Positions 1 through 9,854 of a DNA stretch of 64,000 bases are shown here, piece after piece; within the stretch, counting starts at the first letter, position 1; the number at the start of each line of letters is the position of its first letter. Origin of the DNA: Oligoflexia bacterium (GTDB lineage: Bacteria; Bdellovibrionota_G; JANQFH01); contig JANQFH010000021.1 of the NCBI GenBank assembly GCA_028277945.1, forward strand, positions 186,001-250,000, in the 5' to 3' direction. Position numbers and translations under genes: made by a program. The notes below the pieces were generated by a model. The model made no database searches and had not been told where the DNA came from. It saw only the letters and a program-made list of their open reading frames with translations.

Positions 1-231
1 TAGCTCATTGGTGGCTATGAGAATTCTGTCAAGCATCTCTGGTTCTAGGTCTGCCGTTATGTTATAAATGTTTTCTGCTAACAGCTGTGTTAGTTGGTCT
101 GCCTTTCTCTCAAAGTCCCCGCGAAAATTCTCCTCAAAAAAACGCGAAAATAGAAACCAGCCAATCAGCATGGCAATAGCGCTTAGAACCCAAAAGAAGA
201 GAATAATTTTTGTCCATAACCGATTGAGCAT
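1..231 (-). CDS. Membrane protein N-terminus, probably sensor kinase (partial)
   Basis: The first 77 codons of a minus-strand gene that runs off the left edge. It starts with ATG at 231, two bases after the TAA of the upstream cytochrome-like gene, so the two are probably co-transcribed. The N-terminus begins MLNRLWTKIILFFWVLSAIA: a short basic stretch, then one hydrophobic segment (about residues 8-27), then a polar, probably periplasmic region rich in charged residues. This is the usual layout of a two-component sensor histidine kinase or other single-pass sensor. The catalytic part is outside the window, so the kinase assignment is inference. Confidence 0.55.
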   Translation of the reverse strand, partial: MLNRLWTKIILFFWVLSAIAMLIGWFLFSRFFEENFRGDFERKADQLTQLLAENIYNITADLEPEMLDRILIATNEL

Positions 232-1753: not shown

Positions 1754-3037
1754 TTAGAACTTAAAGACAGCTGAGGTCAATATGAGGTCATTGGCCAGGT
1801 TCGGTGATGGGTCTAGCTCTAGGTTATGTAGATACTCTGCTTTAGCAATGACACGCGACGTGATGTCGAATCGGGCCCCGTAGGTCAAGCGCATAATGTC
1901 TACTTCGTAAACAAAGATGCTCGGAGACAAATGGGTCGCGTCTCGGAAGCCCCAACGGAAGTATGGAGTAAACCAATTTAGCAGCTGATAGTGGAGCTCG
2001 GCATAGGCACCTTCGAAATCGAGCGATGGTGCACCCGAGGAACCGCCTCCGGGAGCCTCACCATTGACATACTCGCCAACAAACTCCAGATCACGCCACA
2101 CCACCAGTAGGTCTCCACCAACCTGCCATTGAAAGATGCTGTTATCAGGCTGCTGCGACTGTGGACCCCACTCTCCAGAGCCGCCAATATCGAAATGCAC
2201 TTCGCCAATGTCGAAGCTGTATGAAATGCGGCCGCTCAGAGAGGGATAAGAGTTTGAATCGATCTCTTCAGAAAAGTTGAAGCTTTCAGTATGGCTAGAA
2301 CCGGTATTCACCGCAAAGTTGATGATGAATGCCTGACTGAAAAATTTGGCGCGTGCCTTAATGCCCAAGGGATGACCGCCGACATAACGAAAGATTAGCG
2401 ATGGGCTGATGCCCGTGCGGTCAGGGGACTCTTGGAAGCGATACTCGCGGCCAAAGGCCGAGTCATATTTGCCAAAATAGAAGGTGACGATTGGATCATC
2501 TGAAAAGGGGACCCACTCCATGTAGGCCAAGTCTAATTCGAGAGAGTCATCGACGATACCACTCAATCCCCTACGAGGATAGAAGTCGATACTGGCAATG
2601 ACATAAAGATCTGGGTGCACCACTCCCAGCAGGTCAAGGTTCACTTCGTTGATGATCGCTGATGGCCTGCCGCCAGAGTTGATAGGGTCGCCGGGAAAGG
2701 CTAGAGAGCCCGAAGTATCTGCGGGGTCTCCACGTGAGTTTACGGGGGTTGCCCAGGGATCACCAATAAATCGGCCCGCGGTTGGAATAGAAGGAAAGTC
2801 GGCAGCAATGATGCCTCCCGTATCAATAACAAAGCCGGTTCCATCACCATCAGGCCAAAAATAACCAATGTCAGCATATCCAGAAAATTTCAAGCGTGGA
2901 AATTTGGGAGACGAAATGCCCGTATCGATTGCTTCTGACTCGACTTGAGCGTGCAGAACATGGTTGCAGCAGATGCAGGCGTAAAGCAGGCATACAACAG
3001 AAGCAAAGGTTTTGAACGTTACAGCAATTTTTTTCAT
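1754..3037 (-). CDS. Outer-membrane porin-like beta-barrel protein
   Basis: About 427 residues with a signal peptide (residues 1-32, ending near HAQVES). After that come alternating amphipathic strands rich in Tyr, Phe, Trp and Asp/Gly turns, with motifs such as LKFSGYADIGYFWPDG, and a C-terminal aromatic residue (SAVFKF), all typical of an outer-membrane barrel. Length and pattern fit phosphate-selective or OprB-like porins without pointing to one family. The ATG at 3037 is preferred over the GTG at 3040 because GGAG lies 7 bp upstream of it. It leads a run with the cupredoxin and haem genes, so it may serve the same metal or redox function. Confidence 0.7.
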   Translation of the reverse strand: MKKIAVTFKTFASVVCLLYACICCNHVLHAQVESEAIDTGISSPKFPRLKFSGYADIGYFWPDGDGTGFVIDTGGIIAADFPSIPTAGRFIGDPWATPVNSRGDPADTSGSLAFPGDPINSGGRPSAIINEVNLDLLGVVHPDLYVIASIDFYPRRGLSGIVDDSLELDLAYMEWVPFSDDPIVTFYFGKYDSAFGREYRFQESPDRTGISPSLIFRYVGGHPLGIKARAKFFSQAFIINFAVNTGSSHTESFNFSEEIDSNSYPSLSGRISYSFDIGEVHFDIGGSGEWGPQSQQPDNSIFQWQVGGDLLVVWRDLEFVGEYVNGEAPGGGSSGAPSLDFEGAYAELHYQLLNWFTPYFRWGFRDATHLSPSIFVYEVDIMRLTYGARFDITSRVIAKAEYLHNLELDPSPNLANDLILTSAVFKF

Positions 3038-3161
3038 CACCGATCTCCGTGGCTACAGGCCTTATGCAGCTGATCTACCATGTAGAAGATCCATACGTAA
3101 AGCGAGTACTTTTTGACTCTTCTCGCTTAGATAACTTGTATAACAGAGGGATTTGTTTTGT

Positions 3162-4220
3162 TCAACATCGAAAGAGCTCAACAATCTCTCCGAGTGGCAA
3201 GAGATGTGAGACGGCGCCGCTTAGGTATGCAGCCTGGGGCATGCCATAGACCACACAACTCTCTTCGTTCTCGGCGATGGTCAATCCGCCTTGCTGATGC
3301 ACAGCGCTCATACCCTTAGCTCCGTCATTTCCCATGCCCGTGAGCAGTATGGCGCATGTATTGGCGCCAGCGACGCTGACAGCCGACTCCATAAGTATGT
3401 CGATGCTGGGTATGTGCTTTGCATCGGTTGGTCTCGTTGTCAGCCTTGTTGTAAAATCGGCAGTGATCCGTAGGTGTTTTTTGGCTGGGGCAATGAGCGC
3501 CAGTCCCGGCTCAATCCTAGTACCGTGTTTCGCCTCTTCAACCGTCAGCGCCGACAGGCGATTGAGGCGCTGTGCAAAAGGGGCAACGAAACCCGCTGGC
3601 ATATGTTGTACGACTAAAATAGGGATGGGAAAATTTGCCGGTGTTTGCGTAAGTATTTGCTGGATTGCCGGCGGCCCGCCAGTGGATGCGCCGACAAGAC
3701 ACATTTTGAAGTCGTTCCAGTCTATATTTACAAGTGCTGGAGTTTTACTGGGTGCCACTGATGCAGCCTTGTTTTTCTGAGACAAAGCAGCTTTCTGTGG
3801 GGGGAATGTTTCTTTAATCTTTCCTGGAAACCACGTTCTTATCTTTTCTCGCAGTTCGTAAGAGAGTTGATTGAAATCCATAACATTTAAGGTTGATTTG
3901 TCGATAAAGTCGACCGCACCAGTCGTTAAGATATCCAAAATCGAATCAACCCCTATCTTACTTTTGTCTACCGCTGACAGTACGATTACCGGTAAATTCA
4001 AGTTTTTGTTCCTAAGTTCTTTAAGAGTCAGCAAACCTTCCATGCCGGGCGTGTCGATGCTTATGGTGACTAGGTCTGGCGACGACGCGAGAATTTTTTT
4101 CACGGTTCCCGGTTCATTGGGAACGGCTTCGATGATCTGGATCATTGGATCTGCAGAGAGGACCTTCGCAAGTGCCTTACGAAAGAATGTGGAATCATCA
4201 ACGACGAAAATACGAATCAT
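3162..4220 (-). CDS. cheB: Chemotaxis protein-glutamate methylesterase with degenerate receiver
   Basis: A 352-residue CheB. Residues 1-120 form a receiver domain; residues about 165-350 form the methylesterase, with the catalytic Ser in GASTGG, His in VVQHMPAGF and Asp in GMGNDGAKGM. The enzyme removes methyl groups from receptor glutamates and deamidates glutamines. The receiver keeps the acidic pair D8/D9 and a Lys in FIDKS, but the phosphoacceptor position is Ser (S54 in VTISIDTPGMEG; families usually have Asp four residues before the Pro). CheA phosphorylation at the canonical site should therefore be impossible. It overlaps cheR by 4 bp and is last in the che operon. Confidence 0.93.
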   Translation of the reverse strand: MIRIFVVDDSTFFRKALAKVLSADPMIQIIEAVPNEPGTVKKILASSPDLVTISIDTPGMEGLLTLKELRNKNLNLPVIVLSAVDKSKIGVDSILDILTTGAVDFIDKSTLNVMDFNQLSYELREKIRTWFPGKIKETFPPQKAALSQKNKAASVAPSKTPALVNIDWNDFKMCLVGASTGGPPAIQQILTQTPANFPIPILVVQHMPAGFVAPFAQRLNRLSALTVEEAKHGTRIEPGLALIAPAKKHLRITADFTTRLTTRPTDAKHIPSIDILMESAVSVAGANTCAILLTGMGNDGAKGMSAVHQQGGLTIAENEESCVVYGMPQAAYLSGAVSHLLPLGEIVELFRC

Positions 4221-5062
4221 GTTTTTCGATCACTCCGTCGATAAATAATCGTTTTTTCCAAGCAGACAGGTTCAAAGTCCTTCCTCTTGTCGATAAGCGA
4301 TTCTGCATGCCCTAAGAAGAGGTAGCGCCCTGGTTTTAGGCAGCGGGCAAAGAGCGAAAGCGCACGATGGAAAGCGCGTTCGCTGAAATAGATCAGTACG
4401 TTGCGACAGAAAATGACATCATAGCTTTTGAATTCGAGATTTTCTTTCTCTGCAGCCAGATTAGCTTCAAAAAACCTTACATTCCTTCGATACTTTTTCT
4501 TAAGGGCATAGTCCTTTTCGGAGATCTTATTAAAGTATCGTTGAATGGTCTGCTCATCACAGATCCGCAATGAATTCTTCCCGTAAACGGCGTTTTTTGC
4601 CTTGGCAATACAGCGTGGGTTAATGTCGCAGGCGTCTATTTCAAAGCTGTAACCCGTTTCTTCCAGCTTTGCGTTGTGCAAGGCAATAGCCAGTGAATAG
4701 GCCTCCTCGCCGCTAGAGCAGGCTGCTGATAGTATTCGTAGAGGGTGCGATGCGATCAATGGTTTGAGTTCATCTAGAATCTTAGAGGTCAAAATTTCTA
4801 TCTGTTGGTTCTCACGAAAAAAGTAGGTTTCGTTGTTAGTGATCGTTTTTGACAGCTCTACATACTCTGTGGCTCGATCTGGGTGTAAAAGGAGGTAGCG
4901 GTAATATTGCGAAAAGCTATGCAGTCGTAGATGGTCGATACGAGTTTTCAGGCGATTCGTTAGGATTTCCTTCCTAGATGTTTGAAAGCGAAGCCCGAAT
5001 TGTGCTTCAATAAAGTCAGAGAGTAATTTCCATTCGGCATCAGTTATTTCAAGGTTGATCAT
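4217..5062 (-). CDS. cheR: Chemotaxis protein methyltransferase
   Basis: A 281-residue CheR, which transfers methyl groups from S-adenosylmethionine to glutamates of chemoreceptors. An N-terminal helical CheR domain (about 1-75) is followed by the SAM-binding fold with motif I ILSAACSSGEEAYS and the later DVIFCRNVLIYF motif. Length is normal for the family. It overlaps the HEAT-repeat gene upstream and cheB downstream by 4 bp each, so translational coupling is likely. No extra TPR domain is attached, unlike many CheR proteins of alternative chemosensory systems. Confidence 0.95.
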   Translation of the reverse strand: MINLEITDAEWKLLSDFIEAQFGLRFQTSRKEILTNRLKTRIDHLRLHSFSQYYRYLLLHPDRATEYVELSKTITNNETYFFRENQQIEILTSKILDELKPLIASHPLRILSAACSSGEEAYSLAIALHNAKLEETGYSFEIDACDINPRCIAKAKNAVYGKNSLRICDEQTIQRYFNKISEKDYALKKKYRRNVRFFEANLAAEKENLEFKSYDVIFCRNVLIYFSERAFHRALSLFARCLKPGRYLFLGHAESLIDKRKDFEPVCLEKTIIYRRSDRKT

Positions 5063-7125
5063 TGGGTCTTGTGAGTGCCTGGAATCTTCTTAAGAGCGGC
5101 ACGCGCGGTTCGCGCGACAACACTTTCGACATCACGGGCCAACGTCAGCAGAACCTCACCAAACTCCGCCAACGCCAGTCTTCCCATGCCCCAGGCAGCT
5201 TCGTTGCGCACATACCAATCGGCATCACCTGCGAGTGAAATCAGTAAATCCCGCTCGTCCTCGCGAATCAGCCGTGCTAAACCATGAGCAGCCTCTCTCT
5301 TTATTTCGATGTTAGACGAGGCTATCTGTTGTTTAAGAAATGGAATAATCTCCGTTGAGGATGTTTGAATCAAGGTAGCAAGAATCTCAATCTGTTCATG
5401 CGCCGGCGCCTTGGTGTACAATTTGATTAGAGGCTTGATAATACAGTCGTCTTGGAAGGTTCCGAGGGCACGTATAATACGGTATCTGATAGGCAACTCT
5501 CTTTCCAGAAGCGACATAAGTTCCGGAAGTGTCTCATTGCGTCCCAGCTCTACCAACTGCTCTATGGCTTCAGTCTGCACGTCGACATCGTCGTCCTGTA
5601 GGCTGGCAGTAATGGTTTGTAATGACTTTTTTTCCGGATAGCCTGCCAACACTCTCAGGGCAGCCCTACGTATGCTTGGGTCATCACACTCCATCAGCTT
5701 CCATACGTCTTCCTTAAACAGCGTTGATTTTGTAGCTTCGAGGATGCCGAGTACGGCCTTGACTACAGTTTTATCTTTCGACAGATCTAGGAAGCTGTGT
5801 AGAGCTTGCAAGCTCTCTGGGGGCATGTTGCCAAGAGCACTCACTGCGGCATTTTTTTCGATTTCATTTTCGCTAACGAGCCGCTTAGACAGCACGTCGA
5901 TGCTCGCCACGTCTTTTAGAGAGCCGAGCGCACTGCAGGCCTGGGCTCTTATCTCTGGGAGCTCATCTTCTAGGCACTGTCTTACCAAAGCCGCTGTACT
6001 CTGATCGTATGCGCCAATCATCAATGCGGCACGCCTTATCTCCGCATCTTCATGTGTTAATAGCTTGGGTGCGACACCAATAAACTGGTTTAAATAGGAT
6101 TTGCAGGTTTTTTTAATCCATTCCGACATACCTCTGTTAGTGCTCAGCACCAAAACTGTCGGGTAAAGAGACTCCAGGTTTGCTGCCATGGTTAAGACGA
6201 CTGCCGATCTTAGCAATTCACTTCCTGTTCGATCTGCTGAGCGGTCATCGTAATTTGGATAGACTATATCCGTAGCAGGTTCATGTTTTGACCCAGAAAG
6301 TTCCATAATGGGTTCGAGATAGTTAAGCAGGCTACCATTTTTCACAGCCTCGGTTAGTTTTTTCTGCGAGTCCTTGCCGATATCATGGCCGTTCTGAAGG
6401 ATTGCTGCTACGGAACAGAGTAGGTGATCACGTAACGGCAACCTTTCTTCATTGCACAGTAGTTCGATGAGTCTATCGAGTGCCTTGGGAGATGCAATTT
6501 GTCCCAAGGCCGAAAGTGCCGATTCACTGAGTATTTGATGGCCGACCAGCCCGAGAAGGGGGTCAACAGCTCTTTCATCACCTATACCGCTGAGAGCCGT
6601 GACAGCAGCAATTTGCAGCCAGAGGTCGGCCTTTAAGAATGGTAGCAACTTGGGCACGGCCTCTCGAGACTTCAAGCCGCCGAGCGCCTCAATAGTTACC
6701 TGTTGCAGATTAGGGTCCTGATGATCAAGTAATGGTAGTAATAGCTGAACAGCAGACGGGTCGTTTGTCGATGCCAAGATTCCTACGACGAACATTATTA
6801 ACTCAAGATTGTCACCCCGTAAGACTTTTTGCAGGTAGGGTAGGGCATAGGGTCCTTGACGTCTCATTGCAGTAATGGCGGCGTTGCGCATCAATGCGTC
6901 TTCATCGCTATCTATCATCTTTCCAATGACTTCAGGCTCGAGATAGCGTGCTGCCAAAGAGATAGCCCCTTCCCTGACGAGACTCGTCTCGTCACGGAAG
7001 CCTTTTACGATAAGATCGCGCAGCTCCTCTTGCTTTGTAGGGGCGGTTTTAACCAATTCTTCAACCGCTTCGCGGATCGCATCAGATCGCTCTTCGGGGT
7101 CTTCTGGTAAGGTGTCAATAGACAA
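5059..7125 (-). CDS. HEAT-repeat protein of the chemosensory operon
   Basis: A 688-residue all-helical solenoid made almost wholly of HEAT/PBS-lyase type repeats (units such as EIRAQACSALGSLKDVASID and DWYVRNEAAWGMGRLALAEF recur roughly every 30 residues). No catalytic motif, signal peptide or membrane segment is seen, so it should be a cytoplasmic scaffold or protein-binding adaptor. It starts with TTG at 7125 preceded by TAGGAG, 17 bp after cheW, and overlaps cheR by 4 bp. HEAT-repeat proteins do occur in chemosensory clusters of deltaproteobacteria, for example next to cheW/cheR in Myxococcus-type systems. The partner is unknown; CheR, CheB or a receptor cluster would be reasonable. Confidence 0.85.
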   Translation of the reverse strand: MSIDTLPEDPEERSDAIREAVEELVKTAPTKQEELRDLIVKGFRDETSLVREGAISLAARYLEPEVIGKMIDSDEDALMRNAAITAMRRQGPYALPYLQKVLRGDNLELIMFVVGILASTNDPSAVQLLLPLLDHQDPNLQQVTIEALGGLKSREAVPKLLPFLKADLWLQIAAVTALSGIGDERAVDPLLGLVGHQILSESALSALGQIASPKALDRLIELLCNEERLPLRDHLLCSVAAILQNGHDIGKDSQKKLTEAVKNGSLLNYLEPIMELSGSKHEPATDIVYPNYDDRSADRTGSELLRSAVVLTMAANLESLYPTVLVLSTNRGMSEWIKKTCKSYLNQFIGVAPKLLTHEDAEIRRAALMIGAYDQSTAALVRQCLEDELPEIRAQACSALGSLKDVASIDVLSKRLVSENEIEKNAAVSALGNMPPESLQALHSFLDLSKDKTVVKAVLGILEATKSTLFKEDVWKLMECDDPSIRRAALRVLAGYPEKKSLQTITASLQDDDVDVQTEAIEQLVELGRNETLPELMSLLERELPIRYRIIRALGTFQDDCIIKPLIKLYTKAPAHEQIEILATLIQTSSTEIIPFLKQQIASSNIEIKREAAHGLARLIREDERDLLISLAGDADWYVRNEAAWGMGRLALAEFGEVLLTLARDVESVVARTARAALKKIPGTHKTQ

Positions 7126-7142: not shown

Positions 7143-7691
7143 TCATTTTTTGTTGTCCGTATTGTATAGTAAAGCACGGTCTAAGTTAAGCAATATCACC
7201 AACCTCTTGTCTAGACGTGCTACCCCGCTGATAAATTCAGTCTGTGTGGAAACCACTTCCTCAGGTGGTTTGGTTATGATTGAAATCGGAATTTTTAGCA
7301 CCTGGTTTACCATATCGACAAGAATGCCCAATGACCGGTCATGAATCTCAATAATGATAATTCGTGAATGCTCACTCAACTTACTGGCTTGGAGTCCTAA
7401 CAGAGTTCGCAACTCTACAACCGGGATGACGCGCCCACGAAGGTTTGTGACTCCACGCACATGTTTGGGAGTCTGGGGTACACGTGTAATGTCGGGTACT
7501 TTAATTATCTCCCGGGCTTTGGAAATGGTAATACCGTATTCCTCCTTATCCAGTAAGAATGTGACAATTTGCAGCTCCGGTGTTCTCTCTTTATCCTTTT
7601 CTGCGACCTCTTGCTGTTTGTTAACGACATCGGCAAAATCCAAGAGGTTCTCTTCGGGAGCGGTTTCTTTGACTGTGGAATCTTTTGCCAT
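7143..7691 (-). CDS. cheW: Chemotaxis coupling protein
   Basis: A 182-residue CheW, the adaptor linking CheA to chemoreceptors. A polar N-terminal extension of about 40 residues precedes the SH3-like CheW domain, which starts at LQIVTFLLDKEEYGITISKA and includes the conserved ITRVPQTPKHVRGVTNLRG and GLQ/VVELR region. Family members are usually about 150-170 residues; the extra length is the N-terminal tail. It is transcribed between cheA (24 bp upstream) and the HEAT-repeat gene. Confidence 0.95.
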   Translation of the reverse strand: MAKDSTVKETAPEENLLDFADVVNKQQEVAEKDKERTPELQIVTFLLDKEEYGITISKAREIIKVPDITRVPQTPKHVRGVTNLRGRVIPVVELRTLLGLQASKLSEHSRIIIIEIHDRSLGILVDMVNQVLKIPISIITKPPEEVVSTQTEFISGVARLDKRLVILLNLDRALLYNTDNKK

Positions 7692-7715: not shown

Positions 7716-9449
7716 TTACTGTAGCGGTGTAACAGGCGGGCTCGTAAACGTCTTCTTCTCCGCTACGCTTTCGTCGATAATTCTAGCGACGTCGAGGATG
7801 AACACGACCTGACCGTTCCCCAGTATGGTTGCGCCAAAAATTGTGTACGAATCCGCAAATATACTGTCCAACCCTTTGACTACTATGTCCTGATGGCTCA
7901 CCAAACGATCTGCGAGAATAGCCTTCGATCTAGATCCAGAGGAGACGATAACACAGAATGTTCTCTTTTTGCTTTTTGACTCGGTGTCCAATAAATTGCC
8001 GCCATCGACAACATGGAGCATTTTGCCGCGCCAATTTAACATGCCAAAGTCTTTTATCTCATGAATCCGCATCTCTTCTAATTTCACACTTTCTACAACA
8101 TGACTTAGTGGTATGGCATATAACTCCTTATCTACTTCAATTAGAAGAGAGCGAATGACCGTCAGAGTCAGAGGCAAGTTGATCTCAAATTCGGTACCAC
8201 ATTTGATTTCGCTATGGACTTCAATACTACCCCCTAAACTCTGTATGGTTTCGGCAACAACGTCCATACCAACACCGCGACCTGAAAGTTCCGATACTTC
8301 AGCAGATGTTGAGAAACCAGGAAGAAAGATTAATCGTTTCACTTCCTCGGCACTTAGGTTTGTCGTCTCAAGACCCATGGACTGCGCTTTCTGACGAACC
8401 TTTTCAACGTCAATGCCTCCGCCGTCATCACCTACTGAAATCACTACTCGATCTGAAAGATTTTTTGCCTGCAGGGTAATCTTTGCCTCCGCCTTCTTGT
8501 CTCTTTTCTTGCGTTCTTCCTGGTCTTCAATGCCGTGGCTAAACGCGTTGCGTATGAGGTGTAGAAGCGGTTCGCCAAGGCGATCTATAATTCTCTTATC
8601 GATACGCGTCTCTTCACCTAGGGTTACAAGGGTTGCTGGCGTTCCTTTCTGACGCGAAAGGTCACGCACAAGTCGAGGAAAACGTCCAAACAGGGTTGAT
8701 ATCGGTAGTAGCCTCGTATCCATCAGTGTATCTTCAAGTCGCTTCATGATTTTGTCGAGAGAGAGGATGGCTCGGCCAAGCATATCGACCTCTGCGCTAT
8801 CTCTAAAGGCTAGTGACATGCGTTGGTGCACTTCAGACAAAACCGATTGCACGATAACGCCCTCACCAACAGCTTCAAGCAGTTCATCTAAGCGTTTAAA
8901 ATCAACCCGAATCGTGTCACTGACTTTTCCAATTGCTGGTTGTTGACCTTTTGCCGCCGGCTCTTGTCGACGCTCTTTTCCCTGTCTACGATCGTCACCG
9001 CTACGCCATTCTTGGTCTGAACGTCGGTCTGTGCCGCTACGTCTCTCTCTTGCTGTCTCGACATAGTCTTGTAATTTAAGAATGTACTCCTCTGCCGGGC
9101 CAGCCTGTACATTTTCGGATTCAGCCTGTTGCAACATGCGTACCAGTAGATCGCCGCCTTCCATAAGCAGTTCCGCCGCTTGCTCGTCGCGAAGTTCGGG
9201 CCGCTTTATCAATAGAGCACAGACATCTTCAAGAGCGTGCGCAGTGCGTTCAATAGGGGTAAACCCCATCATTGCCGAGTTGCCTTTGATGGTGTGAAGA
9301 TCGCTCTTTATTGGCTGGAACAGTTCGTCAGCCGGGTCACCAAACTTCCAACGCCTTTCAAAATTGAAAAAGAGGTCTGCCAACTTTTCGGCCATAGGCA
9401 TACACTCTTCGATGAATGCGTTGATTAACGAACGATAGGCGTTATCCAC
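7716..9449 (-). CDS. cheA: Chemotaxis histidine kinase
   Basis: A 577-residue CheA. Order of domains: P1 phosphotransfer domain with the phosphorylated H52 in LHTIKGNSAMMGF; a hydrophilic linker (about 135-175) with repeated RRSGxDRR-type motifs; P3 dimerisation helices; P4 kinase domain with N box LIRNAFSHGIED, G1 box VGDDGGGID and G2 box GRGVGMDVV; P5 CheW-like domain at the C-terminus. A P2 domain for CheY/CheB docking is not visible, and the protein is shorter than the usual 650-700 residues. GTG start at 9449 is supported by AGAGGA upstream. It lies 9 bp after the CheY-like gene. Confidence 0.95.
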   Translation of the reverse strand: MDNAYRSLINAFIEECMPMAEKLADLFFNFERRWKFGDPADELFQPIKSDLHTIKGNSAMMGFTPIERTAHALEDVCALLIKRPELRDEQAAELLMEGGDLLVRMLQQAESENVQAGPAEEYILKLQDYVETARERRSGTDRRSDQEWRSGDDRRQGKERRQEPAAKGQQPAIGKVSDTIRVDFKRLDELLEAVGEGVIVQSVLSEVHQRMSLAFRDSAEVDMLGRAILSLDKIMKRLEDTLMDTRLLPISTLFGRFPRLVRDLSRQKGTPATLVTLGEETRIDKRIIDRLGEPLLHLIRNAFSHGIEDQEERKKRDKKAEAKITLQAKNLSDRVVISVGDDGGGIDVEKVRQKAQSMGLETTNLSAEEVKRLIFLPGFSTSAEVSELSGRGVGMDVVAETIQSLGGSIEVHSEIKCGTEFEINLPLTLTVIRSLLIEVDKELYAIPLSHVVESVKLEEMRIHEIKDFGMLNWRGKMLHVVDGGNLLDTESKSKKRTFCVIVSSGSRSKAILADRLVSHQDIVVKGLDSIFADSYTIFGATILGNGQVVFILDVARIIDESVAEKKTFTSPPVTPLQ

Positions 9450-9458
9450 GCGGGTCCT

Positions 9459-9854
9459 CTAATCGCTCTGTTTTAGAAACTTGCTGGCAGTTTTTTCAAG
9501 ATCTTCGGGTGAAAAGGGCTTACACAGGTAGTCATCAGCGCCGGCAGAGAGGCCTCGGGCCTTGTCCTGTTCAGTACTCTCTGTCGTAACCAAGACAACC
9601 GGGACATTGAGACGTACCTTTTCCGCCTGTCTTTTTTTTAGGAACTCTAGTCCGTTCATTATGGGCATGTTGATGTCAAGAAATATAAGAGAGATATCCG
9701 GTTCTGAAACGAGAATCGCATACCCTTCTCTGCCATCCATAGCGTGGATGACTCTGCTATTTGCAAACTTTCCAGATGAAAGCACAAGGTCGTAAATACG
9801 GTGATGGAGTTTTGAATCGTCTATGATCAAAAAAGTATTTCTCTTTGTTGCCAA
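9459..9854 (-). CDS. Single-domain CheY-like response regulator
   Basis: A 131-residue stand-alone receiver. It has the acidic pair in FLIIDDSKLHHR, the phosphoacceptor Asp in LIFLDINMPIMNG, a Thr in LVTTEST and the Lys in DDYLCKPFSP. It is the first gene of the che operon and should take phosphate from CheA. It starts with TTG at 9854, preceded by GAGG at good spacing; no closer ATG fits. Whether it binds a flagellar motor or another output cannot be told: no flagellar genes are in the window, while a Tad pilus locus is, so a non-flagellar role is possible. Confidence 0.9.
   Translation of the reverse strand: MATKRNTFLIIDDSKLHHRIYDLVLSSGKFANSRVIHAMDGREGYAILVSEPDISLIFLDINMPIMNGLEFLKKRQAEKVRLNVPVVLVTTESTEQDKARGLSAGADDYLCKPFSPEDLEKTASKFLKQSD

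Follow-up and report, generated by a model that had tools for sequence, protein, structure and literature searches.

CheB is the enzyme that resets chemoreceptors, and it is normally switched on through an aspartate of its receiver domain. Phosphorylation of CheB constitutes a second negative feedback in chemotaxis, the benefit of which has been studied with laboratory mutants. The two-domain CheB proteins of Salmonella (1A2O) and P. atrosepticum (6YMZ) have the same two domains in the same order as the CheB encoded in the window (the whole 64,000-nucleotide stretch of DNA analysed here), which is 35–36% identical to them and keeps the esterase triad; unlike them, the window CheB has no phosphoacceptor Asp and its receiver is unusually diverged. 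In E. coli, according to PMC5809149, CheB-D56E and CheBc lack the phosphorylation feedback and retain activity; the corresponding networks are described as able to adapt precisely via activity-dependent feedback, with larger, even bimodal, cell-to-cell variation. D56E is taken there as an unphosphorylated-like, low-rate CheB and CheBc as approximately phosphorylated-like. The window CheB resembles these mutants in being presumably unphosphorylatable, in its apparent retention of the esterase and in belonging to a network that would lack CheB feedback. The E. coli mutants are, however, engineered, carry Glu or have the receiver removed, and belong to a flagellated species, whereas the window CheB is natural, carries Ser and comes from a genome in which no FlhA was found.

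Asp-less receivers, a subset of the pseudo-receivers, are defined by a match to the receiver family without the phosphoacceptor Asp (PMC12632262), and the window CheB falls within this definition. The Asp is absent in about 4% of the general receiver family, and Ser makes up 15% of the replacements (PMC4395418). Unlike typical Asp-less receivers, the window CheB retains both acidic residues, the Ser/Thr and Lys positions and, at K-3, the aromatic residue. Among Asp-less receivers in general, only 29% have an acidic residue at the second acidic position, and 44.5% retain the Y/T pair (PMC4395418). The word CheB is absent from the main text of PMC4395418 and PMC12632262, as far as these sources were available, and an abstract-level literature search, with many subscription journals outside its scope, returned no description of a natural CheB with such an Asp loss, which does not imply that none has been published. 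Asp-less receivers are thus already known; here, judged from the residues, one is part of a CheB whose pocket is otherwise complete.

The cheB gene (3162..4220, minus strand) encodes 352 residues in a reading frame with no internal stops. The N-terminal receiver is recovered by PF00072 (54.4 bits, cut-off 30.2; residues 4–109) and the methylesterase domain by PF01339, the curated CheB_methylest family (209.9 bits, cut-off 24; residues 175–348). The protein scores 322.6 against the NCBIfam CheB subfamily NF001965 (cut-off 293) and falls below the cut-off of the second such subfamily, NF009206. The codon AGC at 4059..4061 (minus strand) places Ser54 where the phosphoacceptor Asp is expected, four residues ahead of Pro58; Asp56 (codon GAC, 4053..4055, minus strand) occupies position D+2. 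The segment PDLVTISIDTPGMEG aligns without gaps both with PDVVTLDVEMPxMDG, the consensus of the other CheB proteins, and with Salmonella CheB 1A2O. In the predicted model, strand beta-3 comprises residues 50–54, with residue 54 closing the strand at the location of the acceptor. Residues D8, D9, S82, K108, F105, P58 and G62 of the receiver are all present and the Y-T coupling pair is retained, while the esterase triad (S179, H206, D299) is invariant in an alignment of 51 sequences that includes the window CheB. A phosphorylatable receiver Asp, a trait of phospho-regulated CheB and not of the esterase family itself, is missing. The initial annotation had described Ser in place of the acceptor Asp four residues before the Pro, a preserved acidic pair and Lys, and an intact esterase triad, and all of this is borne out. 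It had further held that the usual site cannot be phosphorylated; with no Asp at the acceptor position, normal phospho-activation by CheA is indeed very unlikely. By sequence, the protein joins a genuine Asp-less receiver to an esterase that is intact.

An alignment with other CheB proteins, proposed earlier as a check, finds the substitution absent from the nearest relatives. The comparison set comprised 228 other CheB-like best matches, not drawn at random (29 + 80 loci, 100 fetched regions and 19 from a later search), and, among the matches listed, residue 54 corresponds to Asp in 226 of the 228, to Ser in one (L183) and to Glu in one (L194). Both exceptions also lack the equivalents of D8, D9, S82 and K108, that is, the entire pocket is gone; the window CheB has lost only the Asp of the five catalytic residues, and is the sole such case among the matches listed. 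Under a rule that asks for Asp or Glu at both acidic positions, Asp at 54, Ser or Thr, and Lys, 13 of 225 other CheB proteins miss at least one of the five residues; in two of them the sole difference is a Lys-to-Arg change, and in one (L167) it is a gap in the alignment. Pseudo-receiver CheB proteins are therefore not unique to this genome. More extreme ones are the CheB homologues L177 and L182, with two or more catalytic residues gone from the receiver, and L183 and L194, with all five gone; the esterase is kept in all four. Twenty late-starting matches (the first matched query residue being 135 or beyond in 19 cases and 40 in one) and one match from the later search lie outside the set; the late-starting ones may include CheB proteins with degenerate or absent receivers, and as they were left out, Asp loss in CheB is probably undercounted. 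The fragment L215 entered the residue-column counts and was excluded from the conservation and branch-length analyses, the latter also excluding two duplicates.

With conservation in at least 85% of the set as the threshold, the window CheB keeps 30 of 30 positions in the esterase and 13 of 18 in the receiver, where it departs at A33, D54, M57, P75 and A97; its own residue numbering served to define these positions and the alignment columns. Given its esterase identity, its mean receiver identity to the others is the fifth lowest of 209. When branch lengths were estimated per domain on one fixed topology, the window CheB had a receiver branch of 0.914 and an esterase branch of 0.361; the set holds no close relatives, so this distance is partly isolation, for which the esterase serves as the control. 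The receiver branch is thus 2.5 times the esterase branch, as compared with ratios of 0.90, 0.93 and 0.81 in L034, L035 and L036. As ranks within the sample, not a formal selection test, the receiver excess of the window CheB is 5th of 226, the four ahead (L183, L177, L194 and L182) all being pseudo-receivers, and its log ratio is 6th of 178 with an esterase branch above 0.15. The esterase is conserved while the receiver has diverged, which argues that CheB is not decaying as a whole and that the constraint changed in one domain.

The window CheB groups with L034, L035 and L036 with a support of 0.965 for both domains together and 0.08 within the group, which leaves the details of its nearest placement uncertain; the esterase alone gives a group of five that includes L225, with a support of 0.977, and L225 keeps the Asp. 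All three of the nearest relatives, L034–L036, keep the Asp, so the loss in the window CheB is derived. Ser54 is known from one genome, the search for an orthologous CheB in a second one having found none. Among four genomes of the same phylum, three had no CheB-domain match and one (G002) had a single match. This protein (L252, 1165-2055; 296 residues from the start codon), the only CheB-domain protein found in its genome, shows by eye a CheB esterase domain with histidine-kinase-like sequence behind it; nothing like a receiver lies ahead, and hence there is no residue to compare.

Structure models were compared with the two known proteins. The full-length CheB model superposed on Salmonella 1A2O with a Z of 38.2 and an rmsd of 2.8 over 315 residues (VIA-align), and on P. 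atrosepticum 6YMZ with a Z of 39.1 and an rmsd of 2.4 over 315 residues; Foldseek gave an rmsd of 6.0 over 359 columns for 1a2o. These agreements are to be read with the possibility that the AF2 model leans on known CheB structures. The pLDDT was 88.6, against 91.8 for the sister L034, and 80 against 95 for residues 51–60. The lower values would fit the divergence of the receiver, but a model that follows the alignment less well would produce them too. The pocket loop and alpha-4 are changed, and both are modelled less confidently than in L034.

The cheB gene lies in a cluster read on the minus strand, which begins with a CheY-like single receiver (9459..9854) that keeps its Asp (LDINMP in the translation). 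This is followed by cheA (7716..9449; Hpt, dimerisation, ATPase and CheW-like domains, no P2 match, and the sole dimerisation-family match of the genome), cheW (7143..7691), a gene for a 688-residue HEAT-repeat protein (5059..7125), cheR (4217..5062) and cheB. The stop codon of the HEAT gene overlaps the start of cheR, and that of cheR the start of cheB, in both cases as ATGA. Downstream of cheB, on the same strand, are genes for a 428-residue protein with no Pfam match at E 0.001 (1754-3040), a cupredoxin-like protein (1079-1738) and a 238-residue protein (234-950) that has hydrophobic stretches as well as CMGCH, a c-type haem motif. These three proteins could possibly provide a redox input to the receptor, the 5' end of an MCP gene (1..231) coming last. 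The MCP continues beyond the window (L114, ORF 3370-5370); its probable start at 231 is the ATG just past the stop of the preceding gene (234).

With moderate confidence, we favour a functional CheB whose receiver turned into an Asp-less pseudo-receiver in this lineage, with loss of the CheA-to-CheB feedback and with adaptation through receptor-state-dependent action of CheR and CheB. CheA would still phosphorylate the CheY-like receiver, and the second branch, from CheA phosphate to CheB, would be lost; from established CheB biology, an esterase whose receiver has no Asp phosphorylation should not be stimulable by CheA in the usual way. The esterase would run at a fixed basal rate, set by the seating of the receiver on the esterase, and adaptation would arise from CheR and CheB favouring different receptor states. 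The stop-start overlaps of HEAT, CheR and CheB may hold the CheR:CheB ratio steady, presumably the key quantity without phospho-feedback. The CheR/CheB overlap is also present in L034 and L035, both Asp-bearing, and is therefore no adaptation to the loss of the Asp. The neighbouring MCP has one strict methylation motif as compared with three in each of the MCPs of L034 and L035, which counts against this explanation.

The initial annotation had proposed that the methylesterase is constitutive or controlled in another way. The missing acceptor Asp and the complete esterase are in line with a departure from the usual control, but constitutive activity in the sense of a released enzyme does not follow from them: the D56E precedent is taken to be low-rate, and the model fits full-length 1A2O. 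The superposition on full-length 1A2O over 315 residues would favour an esterase that is held low; the changed and less confidently modelled pocket loop and alpha-4 would favour a released one. We lean tentatively towards a fixed, modest basal rate. If the favoured reading is true, the locus represents a natural loss of CheB feedback, with the esterase conserved and no backup CheB found, and it would show conditions that allow this feedback to be surrendered. The organism probably adapts without the feedback loop used by other bacteria, and a cheB annotation alone does not equal a closed feedback loop.

Against the favoured reading, the other catalytic residues and the Y-T pair are kept beyond what is usual for Asp-less receivers, and this could mean that some switching survives. 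Alternatively, an input other than CheA phosphate could now control the esterase: the co-translated HEAT protein, through the retained pocket and Y-T switch, or a Ser/Thr kinase that targets the receiver. The organism's only chemosensory system would then adapt through a new type of CheB switch; we regard such a transfer as unlikely. Marginally less likely still is the specific proposal that the HEAT protein, co-produced with CheR and CheB, takes the place of phosphorylation by binding to the pseudo-receiver and so switching the esterase. The HEAT gene lies directly ahead of cheR-cheB with ATGA overlaps, and a Halobacterium HEAT_PBS protein interacts with CheD and is needed for flagellar rotation switching (PMC2666748). 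Among the matches listed, however, a HEAT match was present in 10 of the 109 loci searched, nine of them in the order HEAT-CheR-CheB (long matches in L035, L036, L038 and L047; partial and weak ones, of 47 to 57 bits, in L055, L057, L061, L112 and L015). All ten CheB proteins, including these nine, keep the Asp in contrast to the window CheB, and L034, the best CheB match, keeps the Asp and has no HEAT match. Presence of the HEAT protein and loss of the Asp are thus uncoupled, and the HEAT protein did not arrive with the loss; as read from the gene orders, HEAT-CheR-CheB is much older than the loss. The earlier suggestion that the HEAT protein replaces phosphorylation as the control of CheB thereby loses its reason, although an action of this protein on CheB is compatible with the data.

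The best HEAT-CheR-CheB clusters, L035 and L036 (Gemmatimonadales records), share their gene order with the window, and L035 is 51, 44, 48 and 36% identical to it in CheY, CheA, CheW and HEAT, respectively. The HEAT genes ahead of CheR-CheB are at 7183-9168 in L035, 6760-8652 in L038 and 7348-9129 in L047 (5059-7125 in the window). The nine other loci span several phyla, with Gemmatimonadales, Deltaproteobacteria, Nitrospirae and Geobacter records among them. Overlapping junctions in the window (ATGA) and in L035 (GTGA) suggest a translationally coupled trio.

Phosphorylation at an alternative site has been reported for receivers without the Asp, and part of the catalytic pocket remains in the window CheB (D8, D9, S82 and K108), so that Asp56 might accept the phosphate in place of residue 54. 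An acidic residue at D+2 is, however, ordinary: among the matches listed, this column holds Glu in 159 and Asp in 5 CheB proteins (164 of 228), nearly all of which have the acceptor Asp too. Nor does the alignment shift by two residues, as would be needed for Asp56 to take the acceptor position; it is ungapped against 1A2O and beta-3 ends at residue 54. Of the two routes by which the initial annotation thought Asp56 might serve, the shift is rejected and Asp56 as a substitute acceptor is unsupported; we consider phosphorylation of Asp56 improbable. Comparably improbable is phosphorylation of Ser54 or a nearby Ser/Thr by a Hanks-type kinase, with control moved from His-Asp to Ser. The genome has 13 Pkinase-family matches, and Ser/Thr phosphorylation has been described for the atypical regulator GlnR (PMC12632262), but none of the 13 lies within the che cluster, residue 54 as the last of beta-3 in the model is in the pocket and probably poorly reachable for a kinase, and Ser is generally common among the replacements in Asp-less receivers (the 15% of PMC4395418). 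An equally improbable explanation is that Ser54 reflects an error in the sequencing or the assembly, or that the gene is decaying. In its favour, the genome is a single draft of 92 contigs with no second copy, but AGC differs from either Asp codon by at least two bases, so a single base-call error cannot account for Ser54 and two adjacent wrong bases would be needed, the receiver, whose branch is long, departs also at A33, M57, P75 and A97, and the frame is open with no conserved esterase position lost.

Searches of the genome returned one CheB, one CheA, two MCPs and two PilT-family proteins above the cut-off. Two candidates for a substitute, a second CheB as backup and CheD as alternative adaptation enzyme, were sought in the same way and rejected, as neither was found; FlhA was not found either. 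The draft is 95.58% complete, so these absences are likely and not certain. The genome apparently holds a single chemotaxis-type signalling system, whose output could be motility by type IV pili or something else. The neighbouring MCP carries one strict methylation-type motif and five loose ones and the other MCP two and three, with shuffled sequences giving about 0.17 and 1.4. At L115, 1496-4474, the second MCP gene has as neighbours a single receiver and, by eye, a gene resembling type IV pilins, a hint that this chemosensory system acts on a pilus. Beyond the window, at L114 418-3373 on the plus strand and convergent with the neighbouring MCP gene, are genes for a single receiver, a GAF-type family protein (by eye) and a 577-residue protein, the C-terminal half of which matches an ORF upstream of CheA in L034.
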